Part shown: positions 7,826 through 60,712 of the stretch, piece after piece
Numbering within the stretch: position 1 is the stretch's first letter
How the letters are laid out: each line of letters opens with the position of its first letter
Assembly: GCA_019358945.1 (NCBI GenBank)
Contig: JAHHIE010000007.1
Location: forward strand, 1 to 64,000
From: Stenomitos rutilans HA7619-LM2
GTDB lineage: Bacteria > Cyanobacteriota > Cyanobacteriia > Leptolyngbyales > Leptolyngbyaceae
Length of the DNA: 64,000 bases
Reading direction: 5' to 3'
The notes under the pieces: model-generated
Told to the model about the DNA's origin: nothing
Databases searched by the model: none
What the model saw: only the letters and a program-made list of their open reading frames with translations
Made by a program: the position numbers and the translations under genes

Positions 7826-8992
7826 ATGTCCCTTAAAGCGGATTCCTTTCTTGTCAAAGCAACGCTGCTACTTAGCAGTAGCCTGACCATCATGGCAGGA
7901 GCCACGATCGCGCCCTCTCTCCCTGCCATGCGTGATCACTTTGCCGCTACACCAAATGCAGACTACTGGGTTCGGTTGGTCTTAACGGTTCCGGCTTTGT
8001 TTATTGCGATCGGTGCTCCCATTGTAGGAACAGCGATTGACCGCTTTGGTCGGAAGACGCTCTTGGCTTTCGCTGTGTTGCTGTATGGCCTTGCAGGCAC
8101 CTCTGGAGCCATGTTGAACGAGATTGGCTTGATTTTGGTGGGGCGAGTACTGTTGGGTTTGAGCGTGGCAGGCATTATGACGACTGCAACGGCCTTAATT
8201 GCAGACTATTATGTTGGCTCAGCTCGTGCCCAGTTTCTCGGTTTTCAAGCAGCGTTCATGGGCTTAGGTGGGGTTGTCTTTCTCTCTTTGGGTGGGATTC
8301 TGGCTGATGTGAGCTGGCGTATGCCGTTCTTCATTTATCTGCTGGCGCTACTCATCTTGCCGCTTGTTGTGTTTGTGCTGCCAGAACCCAATCGGACGTT
8401 GGTTAGTCAGAATTTGGGTATTGATGCTACTAATGCCTTTCCCTGGCACATTGCAGGTTTAACTTATGCAGCGGCGCTCCTGTCGCAAGTTGTGTTTTAC
8501 TTAATTCCCGTGCAGTTGCCGTTTCATTTAAAGCAACTGACCAGTGCAAATGCTTCACAAGCCGGATTGGCGATCGCTCTTGCAACGTTGTTCAGCGCAG
8601 GTAGCGCGATCGCTTACCAGCAAGTTAAAGCCCGACTATCGTTTATGGGCATTTACGCAATCGCCTTTCTGTCGATGGCTGTCGGTTACGTTGTCATTAG
8701 CTTTGCTACTACCTATGCGTTGGTCTTAGTGGGTTTGGCGATCGCTGGCACTGGCTTAGGCTTACTCACGCCTAACATGAATGTTTGCCTCACCTCTGTT
8801 ATCCCTGCAAGTTTCAGGGGGCGCGTGTTAGGCGGGTTGACAACTGCTTTTTTCCTCGGACAATTCATTTCACCAATCTTGAGTCAACCGCTTAGCGGTA
8901 TTGTTGGTTTAGATGTTACTTATCGGCTAGCAGGCCTACTCTTAGCCTGTATGGGAGCGATCGCCCTTTTGCTAGGTTGGCGCTGGCAGTGA
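7826..8992 (+). CDS. MFS transporter
   Basis: A 388-residue inner-membrane protein with about 12 hydrophobic segments. The loop between helices 2 and 3 has the family signature (GTAIDRFGRKTLL), and the DHA1-like start (IAPSLPAMRDHF) is typical of bacterial drug or metabolite exporters. The open frame reaches 7733, but ATG 7826 places a short basic tail before the first helix. The substrate cannot be told. It ends about 85 bases before a decayed IS1 element, which has not damaged it. Confidence 0.85.
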   Translation: MSLKADSFLVKATLLLSSSLTIMAGATIAPSLPAMRDHFAATPNADYWVRLVLTVPALFIAIGAPIVGTAIDRFGRKTLLAFAVLLYGLAGTSGAMLNEIGLILVGRVLLGLSVAGIMTTATALIADYYVGSARAQFLGFQAAFMGLGGVVFLSLGGILADVSWRMPFFIYLLALLILPLVVFVLPEPNRTLVSQNLGIDATNAFPWHIAGLTYAAALLSQVVFYLIPVQLPFHLKQLTSANASQAGLAIALATLFSAGSAIAYQQVKARLSFMGIYAIAFLSMAVGYVVISFATTYALVLVGLAIAGTGLGLLTPNMNVCLTSVIPASFRGRVLGGLTTAFFLGQFISPILSQPLSGIVGLDVTYRLAGLLLACMGAIALLLGWRWQ

Positions 8993-9078
8993 GAAGCCCT
9001 CTGACTCTTGGCTTCTGGCTCCTGAATACTTCTCAATCAATCGCACTTCATTTGCTTGGAAAGGCACTTTAAAATGAC

Positions 9079-9902
9079 GGTAGTACCTTTTCGTAAAGGC
9101 TAGATAAAATAGGGAATGACTGCCATCTTCATCTCCTATGTCCAGCATTCCTCCCTTTCTGCATTGTCCTAATTGTGGCTCAGAAGACATCATGAAAAAT
9201 GGCACCACCTGACGCGGCAAACAAACTACAAATGCCGCGATTGTGGTCGCCAATTTGTGGAAAATCCGCAGTGGCAACGTCGAGAAAAAGATAGCACTGT
9301 GATGATTGACCGCCTGCTGTTAGAGAAGATTCCTTTAGCTGGCATTGCCCGTGTGCTGAAGTTGTCAGAGTCCTGGCTACAAGGATATGTCAACCAATGC
9401 TACAGGGTGATACCGAAACCTAAAGGAGCATTGAGTGTGCAAATGGATGAATTGTGGTCCTTTGTCAATGACAAAGGCAACAAGCAGTGGGTGTAGTTAG
9501 CGCTCGATGTCGGCGCTCGTGAGATTGTGGGCTGTCACGTTGGTGATCGTTCCAAAGACTCTGCTTTCGCCCTTTGGCAATCGATGCCAGCGGTGTATCG
9601 ACAATGCGCCATGATTTTCACCGACCATTGGGAGGCATATAAGGTAGTCTTACCGAGCAAGCGGCACTGTGCAGTAGGGAAAGAAACGGGATTGACCAGT
9701 GACATTGAACGCTTCAATAACACGTTACGACAACGAGTTTCGCGGTTGGTGAGACAAACCTTATCGTTTTCTAAGAAAGTGGATAATCACATTAGCGCCA
9801 TTTGAAATTTCATCCATGACTACAACGAACAAACTCGTTTAGAGCAAGCAAGTTGTTAAGAGCGCACCGCTTTTTCCCTATCCTTTACTAAAAAAGACTA
9901 CC
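9079..9902 (+). mobile_element. Degenerate IS1-family insertion sequence
   Basis: The inverted-repeat ends are GGTAGTACCTTTTCGTAAAG (from 9079) and the inverse of CTTTACTAAAAAAGACTACC (ending 9902), which match imperfectly over about 25 bases. They enclose a broken IS1-type transposase. The length, about 824 bases, is near that of IS1 (768). No direct target repeat is obvious. With three disruptions in the transposase, it cannot move on its own. Confidence 0.7.
9138..9859 (+). pseudogene. IS1-family transposase, frameshifted and with two stops
   Basis: Reading starts at ATG 9138 with a zinc-finger-like MSSIPPFLHCPNCGSEDI. The frame is then lost at about 9200-9215 and resumes one frame over in YKCRDCGRQFVENPQW. 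It runs through a DNA-binding region and the DDE-type core (ALSVQMDELWSFVNDKG). An in-frame TAG at 9494-9496 follows QWV, where a Trp codon would be expected, and a TGA at 9803-9805 again replaces Trp before NFIHDYNEQTR. The original end is TAA at 9857-9859. IS1 elements naturally use a -1 frameshift between insA and insB, but the shift here is early, within the zinc finger. The two stop codons mark decay. Confidence 0.75.
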
Positions 9903-29048: not shown

Positions 29049-29780
29049 GTGAAACCCCTAAACAAACTCTACTATTGGCTGAAACTCGCCGCGATCGCAC
29101 TTCTATCCTTCTCGTTCGCCTGTCAGAGCTACTCACCCAGTGCTGCTGACTCAAGCGCCATCTCTAGCCCAAATGTAGCAATGCCTCAACCAACGACTGT
29201 TCTCACCGTGCAGCCCAAGAAGATGTCCAAGCAGGCACAGCTCGTTGAGCTTCACATGCTCAATACCGGCATTCGCCTGGATATGCGCTATGCGACCGCT
29301 AACAACTTTATGCACCGACCACTTTACAAACAGCCTCGCTGCCTGCTGAGAGCGATCGTTGCAGAGCAACTCTCGCAGGTGCAGTCAGATCTGGAAGCGG
29401 ATGGGTTGGGTCTCAAAGTCTATGACTGCTACCGTCCACTCTCGGTGCAGAAACAAATGTGGAAGCTGGTACCGAACGATCGCTTCGTTGCTAACCCCGC
29501 TACCGGATCACGGCATAATCGCGGGTCTGCGGTCGATGTCACGCTGGTCGATCGGCAGGGCAACGAACTCCTAATGCCCACCGCCTTCGATGACTTTACC
29601 GAGCAAGCCGCTACAGACTATGACGGTGCAAGTTCATTAGCAAAACAGAATCGTCAGCGCTTACAAGACGCAATGGCGAAGCATGGGTTCACGCCATTGA
29701 TAACAGAATGGTGGCATTTTGATGCGGCGAATTGGTCTCAGTTTCCACTGCTAGATGTGCCGTTAGAAACCGCTCTCTAA
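29049..29780 (+). CDS. M15D D-alanyl-D-alanine dipeptidase, VanX-like
   Basis: A 243-residue exported zinc peptidase. The start is GTG 29049, followed by a signal peptide (LKLAAIALLSFSFACQSYSP). The Cys at position 25 could be lipidated, although the preceding residues are not a perfect lipobox. Zinc ligands are H156 and D163 (SRHNRGSAVD) and H223, with catalytic E220 (TEWWHFDA). VanX-type enzymes cut D-Ala-D-Ala; in organisms without vancomycin resistance they recycle peptidoglycan fragments. No van genes are nearby, so cell-wall turnover is the likelier role. Confidence 0.85.
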   Translation: MKPLNKLYYWLKLAAIALLSFSFACQSYSPSAADSSAISSPNVAMPQPTTVLTVQPKKMSKQAQLVELHMLNTGIRLDMRYATANNFMHRPLYKQPRCLLRAIVAEQLSQVQSDLEADGLGLKVYDCYRPLSVQKQMWKLVPNDRFVANPATGSRHNRGSAVDVTLVDRQGNELLMPTAFDDFTEQAATDYDGASSLAKQNRQRLQDAMAKHGFTPLITEWWHFDAANWSQFPLLDVPLETAL

Positions 29781-29987
29781 GGCAACTTCAAACCCTCTAG
29801 GGACTCGCTGGGGAATAACATCCCACCGCTCATTCACCTCTCCACTCATCCACCCCTCCACTCATTCACCCCCTTCAGCCTGGGATTTTATTGGTTACCA
29901 GTTCCCCTACGCTCCTAAAAACCTGTTTCCTGGCGCGGCCTAAATTAACCCCAGAGTAAACTAGACGTAGCATGGTGAAACAAAACG

Positions 29988-30179
29988 ATGACAACCAAAG
30001 AACAGATCATTCAAGCCCTTGATCAGTTACCCGAACCAAAGCTCACAGATGTGCTGACGTTTATCCATTCCCTCGAAGCAACGGACACTCCACCTGCTGT
30101 TCGTCCTGAAGTGTGGCAAGCGTATTTGGATTCAGAGCGAGAACGAGAAGAGGTGTACCGTCGTCTTGCTAACTCCTAG
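29988..30179 (+). CDS. Antitoxin of a Doc-type pair
   Basis: A 63-residue protein. It begins TKEQIIQALDQLPEPKLTDV, a pattern seen in small DUF2281-like antitoxins, and ends with RPEVWQAYLDSEREREEVYR. It overlaps the toxin gene by 14 bases, as in many type II toxin-antitoxin operons. It does not look like Phd, the classical partner of Doc, since no AbrB-like or Phd N-terminal motif is visible. Its role is inferred mainly from position. Confidence 0.68.
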   Translation: MTTKEQIIQALDQLPEPKLTDVLTFIHSLEATDTPPAVRPEVWQAYLDSEREREEVYRRLANS

Positions 30180-30582
30180 ATTTCTTTCGATCGCTGAAAC
30201 ACTAAACATCCACACCAGACAACTTAAAAGATTTGGTGGCACCGCTGGTATTAGAGATGAAGGGCTTCTGGAATCAGCTTTAGCGCAACCACAAGCCACG
30301 CTTGGTGGTGAATTTCTGCACGCCACGCTTTACGAGCAAGCAGCCGCCCTTTACCATTTGGCGAAAAATCATCCGTTTCTGGATGGCAACAAGCGCACGA
30401 CCTTTGCTGTGATGGATACTTTCTTACGTATTAATGGCTCTACGCTGACGCTAACCAACGAGCAAGCCTATTCACTGGTGCAAGACGTAGTGAATGGGCG
30501 CATCAGTAAGACTGATTTGGCGACCTTGTGGTGGAGCGATCGATCCACTAGGCACCGATCGCTTTTGTCAGTGTGCGACTGA
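30166..30582 (+). CDS. Doc/Fic-fold toxin
   Basis: A 138-residue Fic-fold protein starting at TTG 30166 inside the antitoxin gene. The active-site motif reads H69-PFLDGNKRT, the Doc form of HxFx(D/E)xNKR, in which NKR replaces the NGR of AMP-transferring Fic proteins. Doc phosphorylates elongation factor Tu and stops translation; whether this protein keeps that activity is unknown. Its 3' end overlaps the end of the GrpE-like gene on the other strand by 35 bases, so the C-terminal 11 residues may be late additions. Confidence 0.82.
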   Translation: MLTPRFLSIAETLNIHTRQLKRFGGTAGIRDEGLLESALAQPQATLGGEFLHATLYEQAAALYHLAKNHPFLDGNKRTTFAVMDTFLRINGSTLTLTNEQAYSLVQDVVNGRISKTDLATLWWSDRSTRHRSLLSVCD

Positions 30583-55668: not shown

Positions 55669-57492
55669 ATGACCTCTCCTACAGATTTTCAACGTCCCCC
55701 GTCAGAAGGTTTGGCATTCACAGCGGCAAAAGAGCAGTTGCCGGAACTTACGGATGAATTAGTCTTTCTTCAAGATGGGGCAGGGCGCTATTTGTCGTTT
55801 CGTTGGCAACAAGCGTCCCAATGTGATGTTGTGCCAGACCGGGTAATTGGTAGTCGCATCAGCGAGGTCTTTAGTCCTGTCGATGTAACTGCCTATCTAG
55901 AGCGCATTCAGCGTGTACTGAGTTGCCTTGTTGCAGAGCATTTCTGCTGCTACTTTCGTGTTGCAGAACAAACGCTGCTGTTTGATTTGGTGATGAGCCC
56001 TGTTCTGGTACCACAACGATCGCCAACAAATGTTGTGGTCGCAGGGCGCTTAATTCTTGCCTCAGTAGATGCAACCGCACCGGGACTAGAAGAGTCCATG
56101 CCTCTGGAGGATGTATTGTCTAGTGATTTTCCGGTGATTTCCCTGAGTTCCGATCGCTATCAAAAACTGCTGACTCAGATTGCCTCGAATATTCGCCGCA
56201 CACTGGATTTACCCACTATTTGGCAGCAGACAGTGCAGGGCTTAGGCAAAGCCCTGGGAACCAGTCGCTGTCTTGTTTTTCCCTATGAGCGTGTCCACGA
56301 GCAGCGCACCCCTAAAGTCAAGGTGGTAGCAGAATACTGCCAGGAAGCCTTTCCCTCAATGATGGACTTGGAGTTTTGGGTGGCTGATCATCCGGTGTTA
56401 GCTGCGGCGATCGCCTCACTGAAACCCATCGTTGCGCAAGGTAGTTCGGATCTACAAGGACTGGACACGAACTTTCAGCAGCAATCAACGCTGGTGGTCG
56501 CCACCTGCTATCTGGATCAACCGAACGGACTGATTGTACTGCACCAGTGCGATCGATCCCGTGTGTGGACGGAGGCTGAGCTTGAGTTGATGCAGGAAAT
56601 GGCGGATCAGGTGGGGACAGCGATCGCCCATGCATCTCTTTTTACTGAGAGCAATACCTTGACAGTAGAACTGCAACGGGCGAATGGCAGGTTGATCCAG
56701 AAGCACCGCGAACTTGAGGAGGCTAGACGGCAAGCAGAAGAAGCCTCTCGACTCAAGAGTGAGTTTTTGGCAAACACCTCTCACGAGCTGCGGACTCCAC
56801 TCAACGGCATGATTGGCTTTTTAAAGCTCATTCTGGACGGCATGGCAGACGATCCAGCAGAACAGTATGAGTTTATTAAAGAAGCGTATGGGTCAGCCCT
56901 GCACCTACTAGAAATCATCACAGACGTACTAGACATCGCCAAGATTGAAGCTGGTACGCTGCAAATTGAGCTGAATCCTGTGAATTTAAGCGAGCTGCTG
57001 CATGATGTGAAGCGCTTTGCCCATAGCCAGATGCATCTCAAGAAGCTGAGCTTTGAAATTCAAAAGCCACCCACTGACGACGAAATCATTTTATTCGGTG
57101 ATTATTTGCGGCTGAAGCAGGTGATGTTTAACCTGGTTGGCAACGCCATTAAGTTCACCCATGAAGGTGGTGTGACGATCAGCATCGAAGTGATTAAGAA
57201 GAAAATCAACTTTCAGAACCAGGAGCTTCCTGGTATGGTGAAGGTGCGTGTTGCTGATACCGGGATTGGCGTTTCTCTGGATAAACAAGATCGGCTGTTT
57301 CAATCATTTAGCCAAATCGACGGCTCACGCACGCGGCAGTATGGGGGCACTGGGCTGGGGTTAGCCATCTCTCAGAAGCTGGTGGAAGCGATGGGCGGCG
57401 ATGTAAGGTTTTACAGCATGGGTGAAGGGCTAGGCTCCACTGTGACCTTTACCGCTTTACTGTATCAAGAGCCTGTGATGATTACGTCTTAG
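55669..57492 (+). CDS. Soluble sensor histidine kinase, PAS-GAF-HisKA-HATPase
   Basis: A 607-residue kinase without membrane helices. A PAS-like domain (about 25-130) is followed by a GAF domain (about 175-325), a coiled coil (ELEEARRQAEEASRLKSEFL) and the core: HisKA ANTSHELRTPLNGMIGFLKL, N-box FNLVGNAIKFTHEG, ADTGIGVSLDKQDRLFQSFS and YGGTGLGLAISQKLVEAMGG. No response regulator is adjacent. Its stop is immediately followed by the end of the URC4-like gene on the other strand, with no base between. Confidence 0.85.
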   Translation: MTSPTDFQRPPSEGLAFTAAKEQLPELTDELVFLQDGAGRYLSFRWQQASQCDVVPDRVIGSRISEVFSPVDVTAYLERIQRVLSCLVAEHFCCYFRVAEQTLLFDLVMSPVLVPQRSPTNVVVAGRLILASVDATAPGLEESMPLEDVLSSDFPVISLSSDRYQKLLTQIASNIRRTLDLPTIWQQTVQGLGKALGTSRCLVFPYERVHEQRTPKVKVVAEYCQEAFPSMMDLEFWVADHPVLAAAIASLKPIVAQGSSDLQGLDTNFQQQSTLVVATCYLDQPNGLIVLHQCDRSRVWTEAELELMQEMADQVGTAIAHASLFTESNTLTVELQRANGRLIQKHRELEEARRQAEEASRLKSEFLANTSHELRTPLNGMIGFLKLILDGMADDPAEQYEFIKEAYGSALHLLEIITDVLDIAKIEAGTLQIELNPVNLSELLHDVKRFAHSQMHLKKLSFEIQKPPTDDEIILFGDYLRLKQVMFNLVGNAIKFTHEGGVTISIEVIKKKINFQNQELPGMVKVRVADTGIGVSLDKQDRLFQSFSQIDGSRTRQYGGTGLGLAISQKLVEAMGGDVRFYSMGEGLGSTVTFTALLYQEPVMITS

Positions 57493-58809
57493 TTAAAAAA
57501 CAGTCCCGTCGCTTTCAATTTGAATCGGGGGCCTACCGCTTGGTCGCAATTCTGCGGCAATTTGTCGTCCTGCTGCCCAGGTGCCGCCCTGAAGGATCTT
57601 GACTAAAGGCAGATCGGTTGCGGTTAGGTGAAGCTGCTGTCGGATCGTTTCAGCCAGACGATCGAGCAAAATGACGGTTAACGCACGCCACTCGACGATC
57701 GCCTCGGCACTGGACAAATGTTTTTGTTGTAAGACGATCGGATCTTTGATTTGCAGTAGTCCTAAGTCAACACACAAACCACCATTACGATATTCTGGCA
57801 AACCTGTAAGGGCATCTAAACCGATGATCTCTAGAGTGGCTTGAAGGGGTTCTATTTTAACAACACTAGCAATTTCCTCCTCAGTTAAGGAGATTTCTGT
57901 GCCTAATGCTTGTAGTGGCTCTAATAGTGAGTAAGTCAACCATTGGGAAAGTTTGTGAAACGGCACCAGTTGCGAGTAAGGTTGATCGTCTGGTAGTGCC
58001 GAATGCACCCAAACGTCACCCAAGTTAACGTCTGCGATCGTGAGCCTTCCAGGCCAGATTGCTCCTAAGCCAGAGAGTACGACACTAAGAACAGCACTGG
58101 CTTCTAACTGCCCGTCTCGGATCTGCCTCAGTAAGTAATTGACTAAACACCCAGGACGAGGATTTTGAACACCAAAGACGTCAGGGCTGTCTTGAAGTAC
58201 TTTGCCCAAGCGCTGTAGCAGGTTTAGCCGACCCTGGACACCCACTAGTGGATTTTCGGCACTGACCTGAAACGCTTCACTTAACGCCTCTTCAGTCAAC
58301 GTTTGTAGCCCGATCGCGTCTGCTTGCAACGGTTGGTTGGCATCGCTGGAGAATACTCCCTGACAGAACGCATGGAAACTGGCGATCGCTAAACCTTCCG
58401 ATCGTCGCCAGACTTGCCCACTTCCCGGTTCGGTGTATTGCCAGCGATCCCCTGCGCCAGCATCCAACAGCACACTCACGATCGCCAAATCAAACTTTGC
58501 CTGAGCTTTGGCTAGCGGTGTTAACCCTGCCAGCTTTTCATCTAGCAACGTTAGCCGTGTGGAATCCCCAACTTCAAAATGTCGCCAACGGCTATGAAAC
58601 GGAATGTTCAAATCCGGGTAGCTTTCACGCGTGATTTGGATCACATATTCAGCGACTCGATCCAATTGACTGAGATCGCAACGAAAGTACCGCAGTTTAT
58701 CGGCACACGCCAGATCGAACAGTTGCCCACAGCGCTCTCGAATCGCAAGGGGAGAATGCAGGTAGGCGATCGCGGCAGAGTCCTCTGGATTGAGTAGTTT
58801 AAAGGTCAT
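57493..58809 (-). CDS. URC4/urg3-family protein (DUF1688), uracil catabolism
   Basis: A 438-residue soluble protein of the DUF1688 family. NIPFHSRWRHFEVGDSTRLT, DLAIVSVLLDAGAGDRWQYT and RSEGLAIASFHAFCQGVFSS are conserved in URC4 of yeast (Lachancea kluyveri) and Urg3 of Aspergillus. The biochemical reaction is not established, but URC4 is needed for the URC route that uses uracil as a nitrogen source. It lies 162 bases after the URC1-like GTP cyclohydrolase II on the same strand, the same gene pair as in fungi, which supports the role. Confidence 0.8.
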   Translation of the reverse strand: MTFKLLNPEDSAAIAYLHSPLAIRERCGQLFDLACADKLRYFRCDLSQLDRVAEYVIQITRESYPDLNIPFHSRWRHFEVGDSTRLTLLDEKLAGLTPLAKAQAKFDLAIVSVLLDAGAGDRWQYTEPGSGQVWRRSEGLAIASFHAFCQGVFSSDANQPLQADAIGLQTLTEEALSEAFQVSAENPLVGVQGRLNLLQRLGKVLQDSPDVFGVQNPRPGCLVNYLLRQIRDGQLEASAVLSVVLSGLGAIWPGRLTIADVNLGDVWVHSALPDDQPYSQLVPFHKLSQWLTYSLLEPLQALGTEISLTEEEIASVVKIEPLQATLEIIGLDALTGLPEYRNGGLCVDLGLLQIKDPIVLQQKHLSSAEAIVEWRALTVILLDRLAETIRQQLHLTATDLPLVKILQGGTWAAGRQIAAELRPSGRPPIQIESDGTVF

Positions 58810-58971
58810 GCTCCCTTCTCAAGGATTGTGCATTACAGCAGTTTTCGGTCGAATAAACCAAAGATTGAGCTAGGCGAATGCAGGTTGTTAACCAAAGGTG
58901 GGTAATGGTTCCAACCTTTTGTGTCTTTCTGTAGGGAGGTTACGTGGGACATCCCTACAAAAGGTCAACGA

Positions 58972-60258
58972 CTAATCGCTAAGATCGCGGCCTTTGACCG
59001 TGGCTAAAATGGCCTCCGTTGGTACCTGACCTTCGGTATAGTAACCAGCCGCTTTCTTGGCCTCAATTTCCACCTGAGCATCGGCTGGAATCATGTCATC
59101 CGGGATGGGTACGCGTTCGACGACTGTAATGCCTGAATGGGTAATCGCGTTGTACTTCATATTGCTCATAGAAATCAGGCGATCGATGCGTGTGATGCCC
59201 AGCCAATGAAGGACATCGGGCATGAGTTCCTGAAAGCGCATATCCTGCACACCAGCCACGCATTCTGTCCGCGCAAAGTAAGCATCCGCTCGATCGCCCC
59301 CTTCCTGACGTTTGCGGGCGTTGTAGACCAAAAACTTTGTCACTTCACCCAAGGCACGACCTTCTTTACGGAAGTAGACAATCACACCCGCTCCGCCTGC
59401 CTGCGCGGTTTGCACACAACCCTCAATGCCATGCACTAGATAGGGGCGGCAGGTACAAATATCAGAGCCAAAGACATCGGAGCCGTTGCACTCGTCATGA
59501 ATCCGCACGGCAAGTTCTCGATCGGGATCAGTAATGGCCGTCACATCGCCCACAATGTAGACCGTCATGCCACCGATCGGCGGTAAAAAGACATGGAGAT
59601 CGGGACGTGTAACCAGTTCCGGAAACATGCCGCCTGTTTGCTCAAACAACGTTCGTCGTAGCGTTGATTCTGTCACGCTCAGCCGTTTAGCGAGTCCCGG
59701 CAGATACCAGACAGGTTCGATCGCGGCTTTCGTCACCACCAGATCGCCATTGCCCTTCATAATCGTGCCGTCCACCTTCAGGCGACCTTTCGCCGCCGCC
59801 TCCTGAAGTTCGGGCATGTTGATGTGCGCCTTTGTGATAGCGATCGTGGGGCGAATGTCGTATCCCTGATCATAGAGCGGTTTATAGACCTCTCCAACCA
59901 GGGCACCAAAGGGGTCTAGTGACACAATCTTCTCTGGATCTGACCAGGCCGGGTATGGCCCCAAGAGCGCTGCGGGAGAAGTATTCGTCAGGTCTGCTCG
60001 GTGGTCAGACTGAAGCTGACCGCTTGCAACCGCTAACGCTCTGTAGATGCCGTAAGCCCCAGAGTGACTACCAATCACATTTCGATGAGCCGCCTTAGTC
60101 AAAGTGCCAACGATCGCTCCCCGCACAAGCGGATCTGCCGCTCCCCACTGAATTGGGAGAGGTTTGGGACCAAAGCGGGTAGGGTGGGAGGTCAGAACAA
60201 TATGTTTCGACGGCGACCCTATCTTTTCGCTGGATGACTCTATCTTTTCGCTGGACAT
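58972..60258 (-). CDS. GTP cyclohydrolase II of the URC1 type
   Basis: A 428-residue protein whose C-terminal half is a GTP cyclohydrolase II domain: zinc cysteines in HDECNGSDVFGSDICTCRPY and the catalytic segment VIVYFRKEGRALGEVTKFLV. The N-terminal half (ADPLVRGAIVGTLTKAAHR and IGSHSGAYGIYRALAVA) is not found in RibA but in URC1, which acts in uracil breakdown, so a riboflavin role is less likely. ATG 60258 has GGGAG upstream; the frame is open to 60372. The start contains a small direct repeat (SSEKIESSSEKIG). It is likely cotranscribed with the URC4 gene. Confidence 0.85.
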   Translation of the reverse strand: MSSEKIESSSEKIGSPSKHIVLTSHPTRFGPKPLPIQWGAADPLVRGAIVGTLTKAAHRNVIGSHSGAYGIYRALAVASGQLQSDHRADLTNTSPAALLGPYPAWSDPEKIVSLDPFGALVGEVYKPLYDQGYDIRPTIAITKAHINMPELQEAAAKGRLKVDGTIMKGNGDLVVTKAAIEPVWYLPGLAKRLSVTESTLRRTLFEQTGGMFPELVTRPDLHVFLPPIGGMTVYIVGDVTAITDPDRELAVRIHDECNGSDVFGSDICTCRPYLVHGIEGCVQTAQAGGAGVIVYFRKEGRALGEVTKFLVYNARKRQEGGDRADAYFARTECVAGVQDMRFQELMPDVLHWLGITRIDRLISMSNMKYNAITHSGITVVERVPIPDDMIPADAQVEIEAKKAAGYYTEGQVPTEAILATVKGRDLSD

Positions 60259-60712
60259 AGATGCTCCCAATGAGAATAGACGTGAAGAGAACGCTAGACG
60301 ATAACCTCTACACTTGACAGCTTTGATTTTGAAGCAGTCGATCGTGCCGCCTCCAGTGACTGGCGTAGCCATAGCCAGATTGGTTAGGACGGTGTGCAGG
60401 GGTGGAATCCCTGGTTAAGGGCAACCCACACACCCTTTGGTCCCTATGTCCTCACCTTTAGGACAACAGCTATATTCACCTTTAGGACAACAGCTATATA
60501 AAGCCCAAATCAGACAACTGACATGCAATCAGGTGTGATCTTTGCCACGCGTAGAGCCTACGATTCTACCAATTGAGGTTTGCCTGTGGAGTGATGCAGG
60601 CAGCAGAAAGGCAGGGAGAGTGGGGGAAAGAAGTGGGGTGAGGGATAAATTTAGCCGTCAGCATTCAGCCTTTAGCCTACTGCTCCGCAGAAGCAAGCTA
60701 CAGTCTTAGCCT
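60259..60712. other. Region between the URC1-like and mutY genes, 454 bp
   Basis: It holds two perfect tandem 24-bp repeats (60452-60499) and, nearer mutY, CAAGCTACAGTC and CCTTTAGCC-type dispersed repeats (60600-60715). No gene was found. An inverse segment near 60550-60585 looks a little like a tRNA but does not fold. Confidence 0.5.
60452..60499. promoter_or_regulatory. Tandem 24-bp repeat upstream of the URC1-like gene
   Basis: A 24-base unit containing CCTTTAGGACAACAGCTATA occurs twice with no gap and no mismatch. It lies about 195 bases before the ATG 60258. It could bind a regulator of the pyrimidine genes or be part of the promoter. Function unproven. Confidence 0.5.

Follow-up and report, generated by a model that had tools for sequence, protein, structure and literature searches.

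A URC1-URC4 gene pair of the cyanobacterium Stenomitos rutilans and the likely kinship of URC4 with the queuine-salvage protein Qng1

The first 64,000 nucleotides of contig JAHHIE010000007.1 from Stenomitos rutilans HA7619-LM2 (assembly GCA_019358945.1), here called the window, carry a gene for a URC1-family cyclohydrolase followed by one for a URC4/DUF1688 protein (Table 1). Both families belong to the URC pathway, a known route of uracil breakdown that recovers the nitrogen of the base. Both open reading frames (ORFs) are complete, at the coordinates given by a first-pass annotation of the same DNA. That annotation had proposed a URC1-URC4 pair, which the family models bear out. The cyclohydrolase is composed of PF12471 (GTP_CH_N, 281 bits) and PF00925 (GTP_cyclohydro2, 64 bits) and reaches 755.5 bits with NCBIfam NF005536 (cut-off 403), while its partner matches PF07958 (DUF1688) in two stretches with 514.4 bits (cut-off 25). 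An alternative upstream start of the URC1 ORF can be read at 60372. However, GGGAGCATCTATG at ATG 60258 is common to the window and the related loci L110, L071 and L077, and the DNA upstream is divergent, which supports the start at 60258. The context at the corresponding URC1 start is GGGTGCCTCTATG in L070 and GGGTGAACTATG in L074.

Table 1. Positions in the window of the two genes and of the URC4 sites discussed in the text
Feature	Position	Strand	Description
URC1-family cyclohydrolase (UTP-cyclohydrolase type)	58972..60258	-	428 aa; PF12471 N-terminal half and PF00925 catalytic half
URC4/DUF1688 protein	57493..58809	-	438 aa; predicted Qng1-like nucleotide N-glycosyl hydrolase
URC1-URC4 intergenic gap	58810..58971	-	162 nt
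URC4 in-frame 22-codon insertion (residues 304-325)	57835..57900	-	window copy only (1/81); low-confidence stretch of the model
URC4 K286 codon	57952..57954	-	aligned with Qng1 K199
URC4 E339 codon	57793..57795	-	aligned with Qng1 D231 (Asp to Glu)

The closest solved structures of the cyclohydrolase are PDB entries 7eev and 7ej3 (E 3.5e-186, 65% identity, Z 45.7, alignment nearly full-length). They are titled UTP cyclohydrolase and carry the molecule name GTP cyclohydrolase II. From the 65% identity we infer that the window URC1 is likewise a UTP cyclohydrolase by activity. The first-pass annotation had set the enzyme apart from riboflavin RibA and suggested a phylogeny as a check. In the tree that we built, a single branch with a support of 100/100 and one change divides 43 URC1 rows from 7 RibA rows. 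The URC1 rows were 34 of the 66 intact URC1s from 80 named loci (described below), the window copy and 8 others; the URC1 alignment (A4) is the same choice without these 8. We used only the URC1/RibA split, because long branches meet in this tree. The RibA models stay below their cut-offs on the window URC1 (64.3 against 148 bits and 61.6 against 205.85 bits), and the window genome (G000) has another GTP cyclohydrolase II domain in a 574-aa frame at G000:C17, the candidate expected to be its RibA. Residues C257, C268, C270, Y312, D339, R341 and K368, which we take to be those of the RibA site, are kept in 11 of 11 URC1 rows as well as in the genome's own RibA.

The two genes are inherited together. 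Across the phylum, 25 of 292 genomes have URC4; they belong to 19 of the 116 genera. URC1 exceeded its cut-off in 24 of these 25 genomes and in none of the 267 without URC4 (Fisher value 2.8e-34, kinship ignored). One of the 24, G215, has its URC1 divided between two frames. The exception, G039, harbors a URC1 with six in-frame stops and a URC4 with one. URC1 fragments without a URC4 match occur in at least three genomes (G125, G167 and G278), and the fragment in G167 adjoins a fragment of a uracil phosphoribosyltransferase gene (upp) of the type described below. When regions of 11-20 kb around URC4 were fetched from the 24 other genomes, 18 of them contained URC1 (one broken). Among plasmid records, all 13 with URC4 also had URC1. 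Five stretches of viral contigs fitted a URC4 pattern, but none of them encodes a relative.

A URC1-family protein with 53% identity and with no URC4 in the plasmid collection is encoded on the Rhizobium leguminosarum plasmid CP050552.1 (L068:7920-9119). Its gene neighbours code for a RibD_C reductase, a haem-oxygenase-like protein (PF14518) and a Rieske protein, and it may be a cyclohydrolase of the URC1 type that has been recruited to biosynthesis.

The first-pass annotation had described the pair as a two-gene unit with no phosphoribosyltransferase gene in the window. It is true that upp lies outside the window, but the genome harbors two genes above the cut-off, at G000:C64:785-1441 and 29776-30399. 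One of them is 72-84% identical to the upp of 20 of the other 24 URC4 genomes and is subsequently referred to as URC-type upp. This type is present in 21 of the 25 URC4 genomes, the window genome included, and in none of 25 comparison genomes without URC4, apart from the fragment in G167; the copy in G157 contains a stop. The comparison genomes were the 20 first-listed ones and five chosen by hand, three of these for their URC1 fragments. A second upp copy, 35-45% identical to the URC-type, occurs in all 50 genomes compared and is presumably the housekeeping enzyme. The URC-type paralogue, co-inherited with the pair, is likely to be the entry enzyme of the pathway in cyanobacteria. Just downstream of the URC-type upp we noticed a gene for a protein with a ureidoglycolate-lyase domain (PF04115, 32 bits; L036:1641-2132 on G000:C64).

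The gene order in relatives was examined in 80 named loci from cyanobacteria, myxobacteria, a Planctomycetota record and Proteobacteria. These loci rank best among at least 570, so the set leans to close relatives, and some are cut short by contig ends. Of the 80, 72 include URC1, 65 include upp and 59 include both. Eight lack URC1, and two of those start right at URC4. In 50 of the 80 loci, URC1, URC4 and upp follow each other on the same strand, separated by no more than 400 bases. In L070 and L110, the two closest relatives of the window in this set, upp is not found within 10 kb. Taken together, the URC-type upp on C64 and the upp genes in 65 of the relatives' loci rule out a stand-alone two-gene unit. 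We also clustered the neighbouring genes and annotated one representative per cluster; by this measure a Bmp-type binding protein recurs in 10 loci, a permease in 15 and an NMT1/THI5-like protein in 9.

We next turned to URC4, for which the PDB holds no structure that matches by sequence. An AlphaFold2 model built from 81 URC4 sequences reached a pLDDT of 91.2 and a pTM of 0.90. A Foldseek search of the PDB with this model returned 11 chains with E<=0.001, all of them Qng1/DUF2419 proteins of queuine salvage, and the next hit had an E of 0.23. With VIA-align the model superposes on human Qng1 with a Z of 27.1 (326 residues, 3.2 A) and on bacterial Qng1 with a Z of 27.0 (311 residues, 2.9 A). 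The best entry outside Qng1, a Pyrococcus protein, has a Z of 9.1, and helix-hairpin-helix (HhH) DNA glycosylases are among the rows that follow. A Pfam scan of the individual members pointed in the same direction: 43 of the 81 URC4s touch PF10343 (Q_salvage) at E<=1, the best at 1.6e-5, while the next family is touched by 5 of 81. In a subset of 27 URC4s, a choice of mostly non-cyanobacterial sequences (alignment A5), 8 match PF10343 at E<=0.1, the best at 0.011.

For a comparison of profiles, Qng1-type proteins were taken from the phylum of L133 (Planctomycetota by record title), in which 8 of 246 genomes have Q_salvage matches (L159-L166), one of them weak. Seven of the eight loci entered the Qng1-type alignment (A6), from which the weak match, L166, was omitted. 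One of the seven proteins was compared to the PDB and matches 7uk3/7u07 at 1.8e-46. The profile of the 27 URC4s aligns with that of the seven Qng1-type proteins collinearly over 302 columns (hhalign, P 6e-6, probability 85%), whereas the control with URC1 in place of URC4 gave a P of 0.36. In the alignments of URC4 with Qng1, the FxKRAQ stretch of Qng1 (K199) stands opposite PFHKLSQ of URC4 (K286), and LTxFAD (D231) opposite LTGLPE (E339). In fact, K286 and E339 are each invariant in 81 of 81 URC4s. The PDB titles name the Qng1 mutants K199C and D231N. We take these two positions to be catalytic, in keeping with the crystallisation of D231N together with queuosine-5'-phosphate. Q_salvage itself was found in none of 26 URC-bearing genomes or records, nor in the control genomes. 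Among the matches listed in a search of the open-licence literature, none links URC4 or DUF1688 to Qng1 or DUF2419.

These data suggest a course for the pathway. GTP cyclohydrolase II opens the ring of its nucleotide with release of pyrophosphate, and Qng1 cuts the sugar-base bond of a 5'-nucleotide. Applied to UTP, as the name UTP cyclohydrolase would have it, a ring opening of the first kind by URC1 would leave a urea on the sugar, and a Qng1-like enzyme would then free urea and ribose-5-phosphate. Uracil and 5-phosphoribosyl pyrophosphate would first be joined to UMP by the URC-type Upp encoded on C64, and general kinases would raise UMP to UTP. URC1 would convert UTP to pyrophosphate, 3-oxopropanoate (a three-carbon aldehyde acid) and N-(5-phosphoribosyl)urea. 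URC4, using the K286/E339 pair, would hydrolyse phosphoribosylurea to urea and ribose-5-phosphate, and urease would turn urea into ammonia and CO2. The genome contains two further parts of a complete pathway besides the pair, namely uracil phosphoribosyltransferase (two genes above the cut-off, one of the URC-type) and urease, with two alpha-subunit genes (L038:8574-10304 on G000:C3 and L039:1882-3648 on G000:C19). The proposed URC4 step agrees with a published yeast metabolic model in which URC4 turns ribosylurea into urea (PMC7530994).

The locus is thus an ordinary member of a known pathway in a further host. We consider it probable that it forms the core of a bacterial URC route of uracil catabolism, with the URC-type upp on another contig and URC4 as a Qng1-like hydrolase. 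With somewhat more reserve, we favor the narrower proposal, drawn from sequence and predicted structure, that URC4/DUF1688 is distantly related to Qng1 within the HhH-glycosylase-like superfamily and hydrolyses N-(5-phosphoribosyl)urea, with Lys286 and Glu339 as its catalytic pair.

Several observations weigh against this assignment. URC1 lies outside the fetched URC4 region in 6 of the 24 other cyanobacterial genomes and is found elsewhere in those genomes, and among 16 plasmid records with a near-full-length URC1, three, all from Rhizobium leguminosarum, show no URC4 (plasmid records only). Urease does not discriminate, since it occurs in 25 of 25 URC4 genomes and also in 23 of 25 others (Fisher p 0.49), and it counts as permissive evidence only. 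The predicted model of URC1 is only fair (pLDDT 73.8). As for URC4, one phmmer and two hmmsearch runs against the PDB returned no Qng1 chain at E<=10, so the link to Qng1 rests on the fold, the Pfam member scan and the profile-profile comparison. When all 81 URC4s are aligned with the seven Qng1-type proteins, the alignment is again collinear (275 columns, P 2.7e-4), but its probability is only 42%. The window URC4 reaches 14.3 bits with Q_salvage, below the 25-bit cut-off, and has to be regarded as a distant relative and not as a member of PF10343. Asp231 of Qng1 is a Glu in URC4, and the C-terminal HRTRT stretch of Qng1 has no obvious equivalent in the SDGTVF end of URC4, which leaves phosphate binding unexplained. 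Finally, the 22-residue insertion of the window copy is seen in 1 of 81 URC4s and falls into a low-confidence stretch of the model. Given the failed PF10343 cut-off, the Glu in place of Asp and the missing HRTRT end, URC4 is at most Qng1-like in its working.

The strongest alternative, although an unlikely one, is that URC4 resembles Qng1 in fold but has another nucleotide (UMP, UTP or a modified one) as its substrate and acts beside or before URC1. Similarity of fold leaves the substrate unfixed, and the ligand crystallised with Qng1 is queuosine-5'-phosphate. However, the co-inheritance with URC1 and the assignment of URC4 to the step from ribosylurea to urea in the published yeast model place URC4 after the ring opening, and cleavage of UMP would merely reverse the Upp step. 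We give a smaller chance to the idea that URC4 shares in the ring opening, releasing the three-carbon unit, and has lost the glycosidase activity of the fold. The change of Asp231 to Glu would be in line with such a role, and the yeast steps from uracil to ribosylurea are described as not characterised. The invariance of the Lys/acid pair in all 81 URC4s speaks against it, as do the titles of 7eev and 7ej3, which credit the URC1 homologue alone with the identity of UTP cyclohydrolase.

Slightly less probable still is a relic, in which the insertion in URC4 and the separation from upp have inactivated the pathway of this strain while a Rut-like route works instead. A search of the genome for rut genes had been suggested by the first-pass annotation. 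A search for rutA with TIGR03612 revealed a RutA-like gene, and a gene nearby downstream on the same strand proved to be RutB-like (L154:7197-8258 and 8958-9674, G000:C39 at about 164-167 kb); both are below their NCBIfam cut-offs (404 bits against 498 and 344 bits against 378). A search with PF00860 for a uracil/RutG-type permease gave two genes, both best described as xanthine permeases. In the other 49 of the 50 genomes searched, nothing comparable to the RutA-like protein turned up, the best near-full-length match being 31% identical. A caspase-domain gene precedes the pair. The relic would account for an insertion unique among the 81 URC4s, and decay of the cluster is visible in G039 and G167. 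Against this, neither frame is interrupted, the positions inspected are conserved, the insertion lies in a low-confidence part of the model and away from K286 and E339 in sequence, and the genome holds a URC-type upp with an open frame. Apart from this question, the Rut-like pair makes the genome a confounded host, in which growth on uracil would not prove the URC route, and a poor choice for single mutants. That the cyclohydrolase is a riboflavin RibA, as its PF00925 domain and the RibA zinc-site cysteines might suggest, is contradicted by the tree split, the model scores and the separate RibA candidate, and we regard it as extremely improbable.

The surroundings of the two genes yielded few signals. 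No promoter-like or terminator-like site was found in the gap between URC1 and URC4, and over the region as a whole such sites are no commoner than in shuffled sequences. The two genes are presumably expressed as one unit. Neither the window nor the five relatives compared show an NtcA-type GTA-N8-TAC site upstream of URC1, and there are no Rfam or tRNA matches at the locus. Relative to L070 and L110, the DNA upstream of URC1 contains an insertion of about 135 bases (about 60358-60493), also free of Rfam and tRNA matches. Two exact copies of a 21-base sequence, 24 bases apart, are located at 60452-60496. Within URC4, the end of the insertion and the residues that follow it (EPLQATLEI) resemble EPLQALGTEI, which immediately precedes the insertion, much as an old partial duplication would leave them. 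At the other end, a gene for a GAF-domain histidine kinase (55669-57492) converges on URC4 and ends at 57492, directly beside the final base of URC4 (57493).

The new element here is the proposed tie between URC4 and Qng1, for a family, URC4/DUF1688, that Pfam lists as of unknown function although bacteria and fungi share it as a core enzyme of their URC pathway. The homology suggests a reaction, a substrate and two residues to mutate, so that experiments in bacteria and yeast can directly address the half of the pathway that is still open. If the proposal is true, a nucleosidase fold of base salvage would have been turned to the release of urea from an opened pyrimidine nucleotide.

The pathway can be compared with several known systems. 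In Schizosaccharomyces pombe, urg1, urg2 and urg3 are reported to be clustered and induced by uracil (PMC2174524, PMC3869809). These genes and URC1, URC4 and URC6 of Lachancea kluyveri represent the same three protein families as found here. The window genome differs in that URC1 adjoins URC4 and upp is on another contig; it also has urease genes. The first enzyme has already been published as a UTP cyclohydrolase (Zhang et al., ACS Catal 2021), a paper that, to judge from its title, describes 7eev and 7ej3. URC4 shares with Qng1 (7u07, 7uk3, 7ugk, 7ulc) its fold, a collinear profile alignment and the equivalent of Lys199. It differs in that the two are only 16-20% identical, Qng1 is about 100 residues shorter and the pathway is another one. 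Plasmids of Azospirillum, Pseudoroseomonas and Gordonia carry URC1 followed by URC4 as in the window, but there upp comes directly after URC4, whereas it is unlinked in the window genome. The existing annotation of these three plasmids names the two genes, which stand next to upp, "GTP cyclohydrolase II" and "URC4/urg3 family protein".

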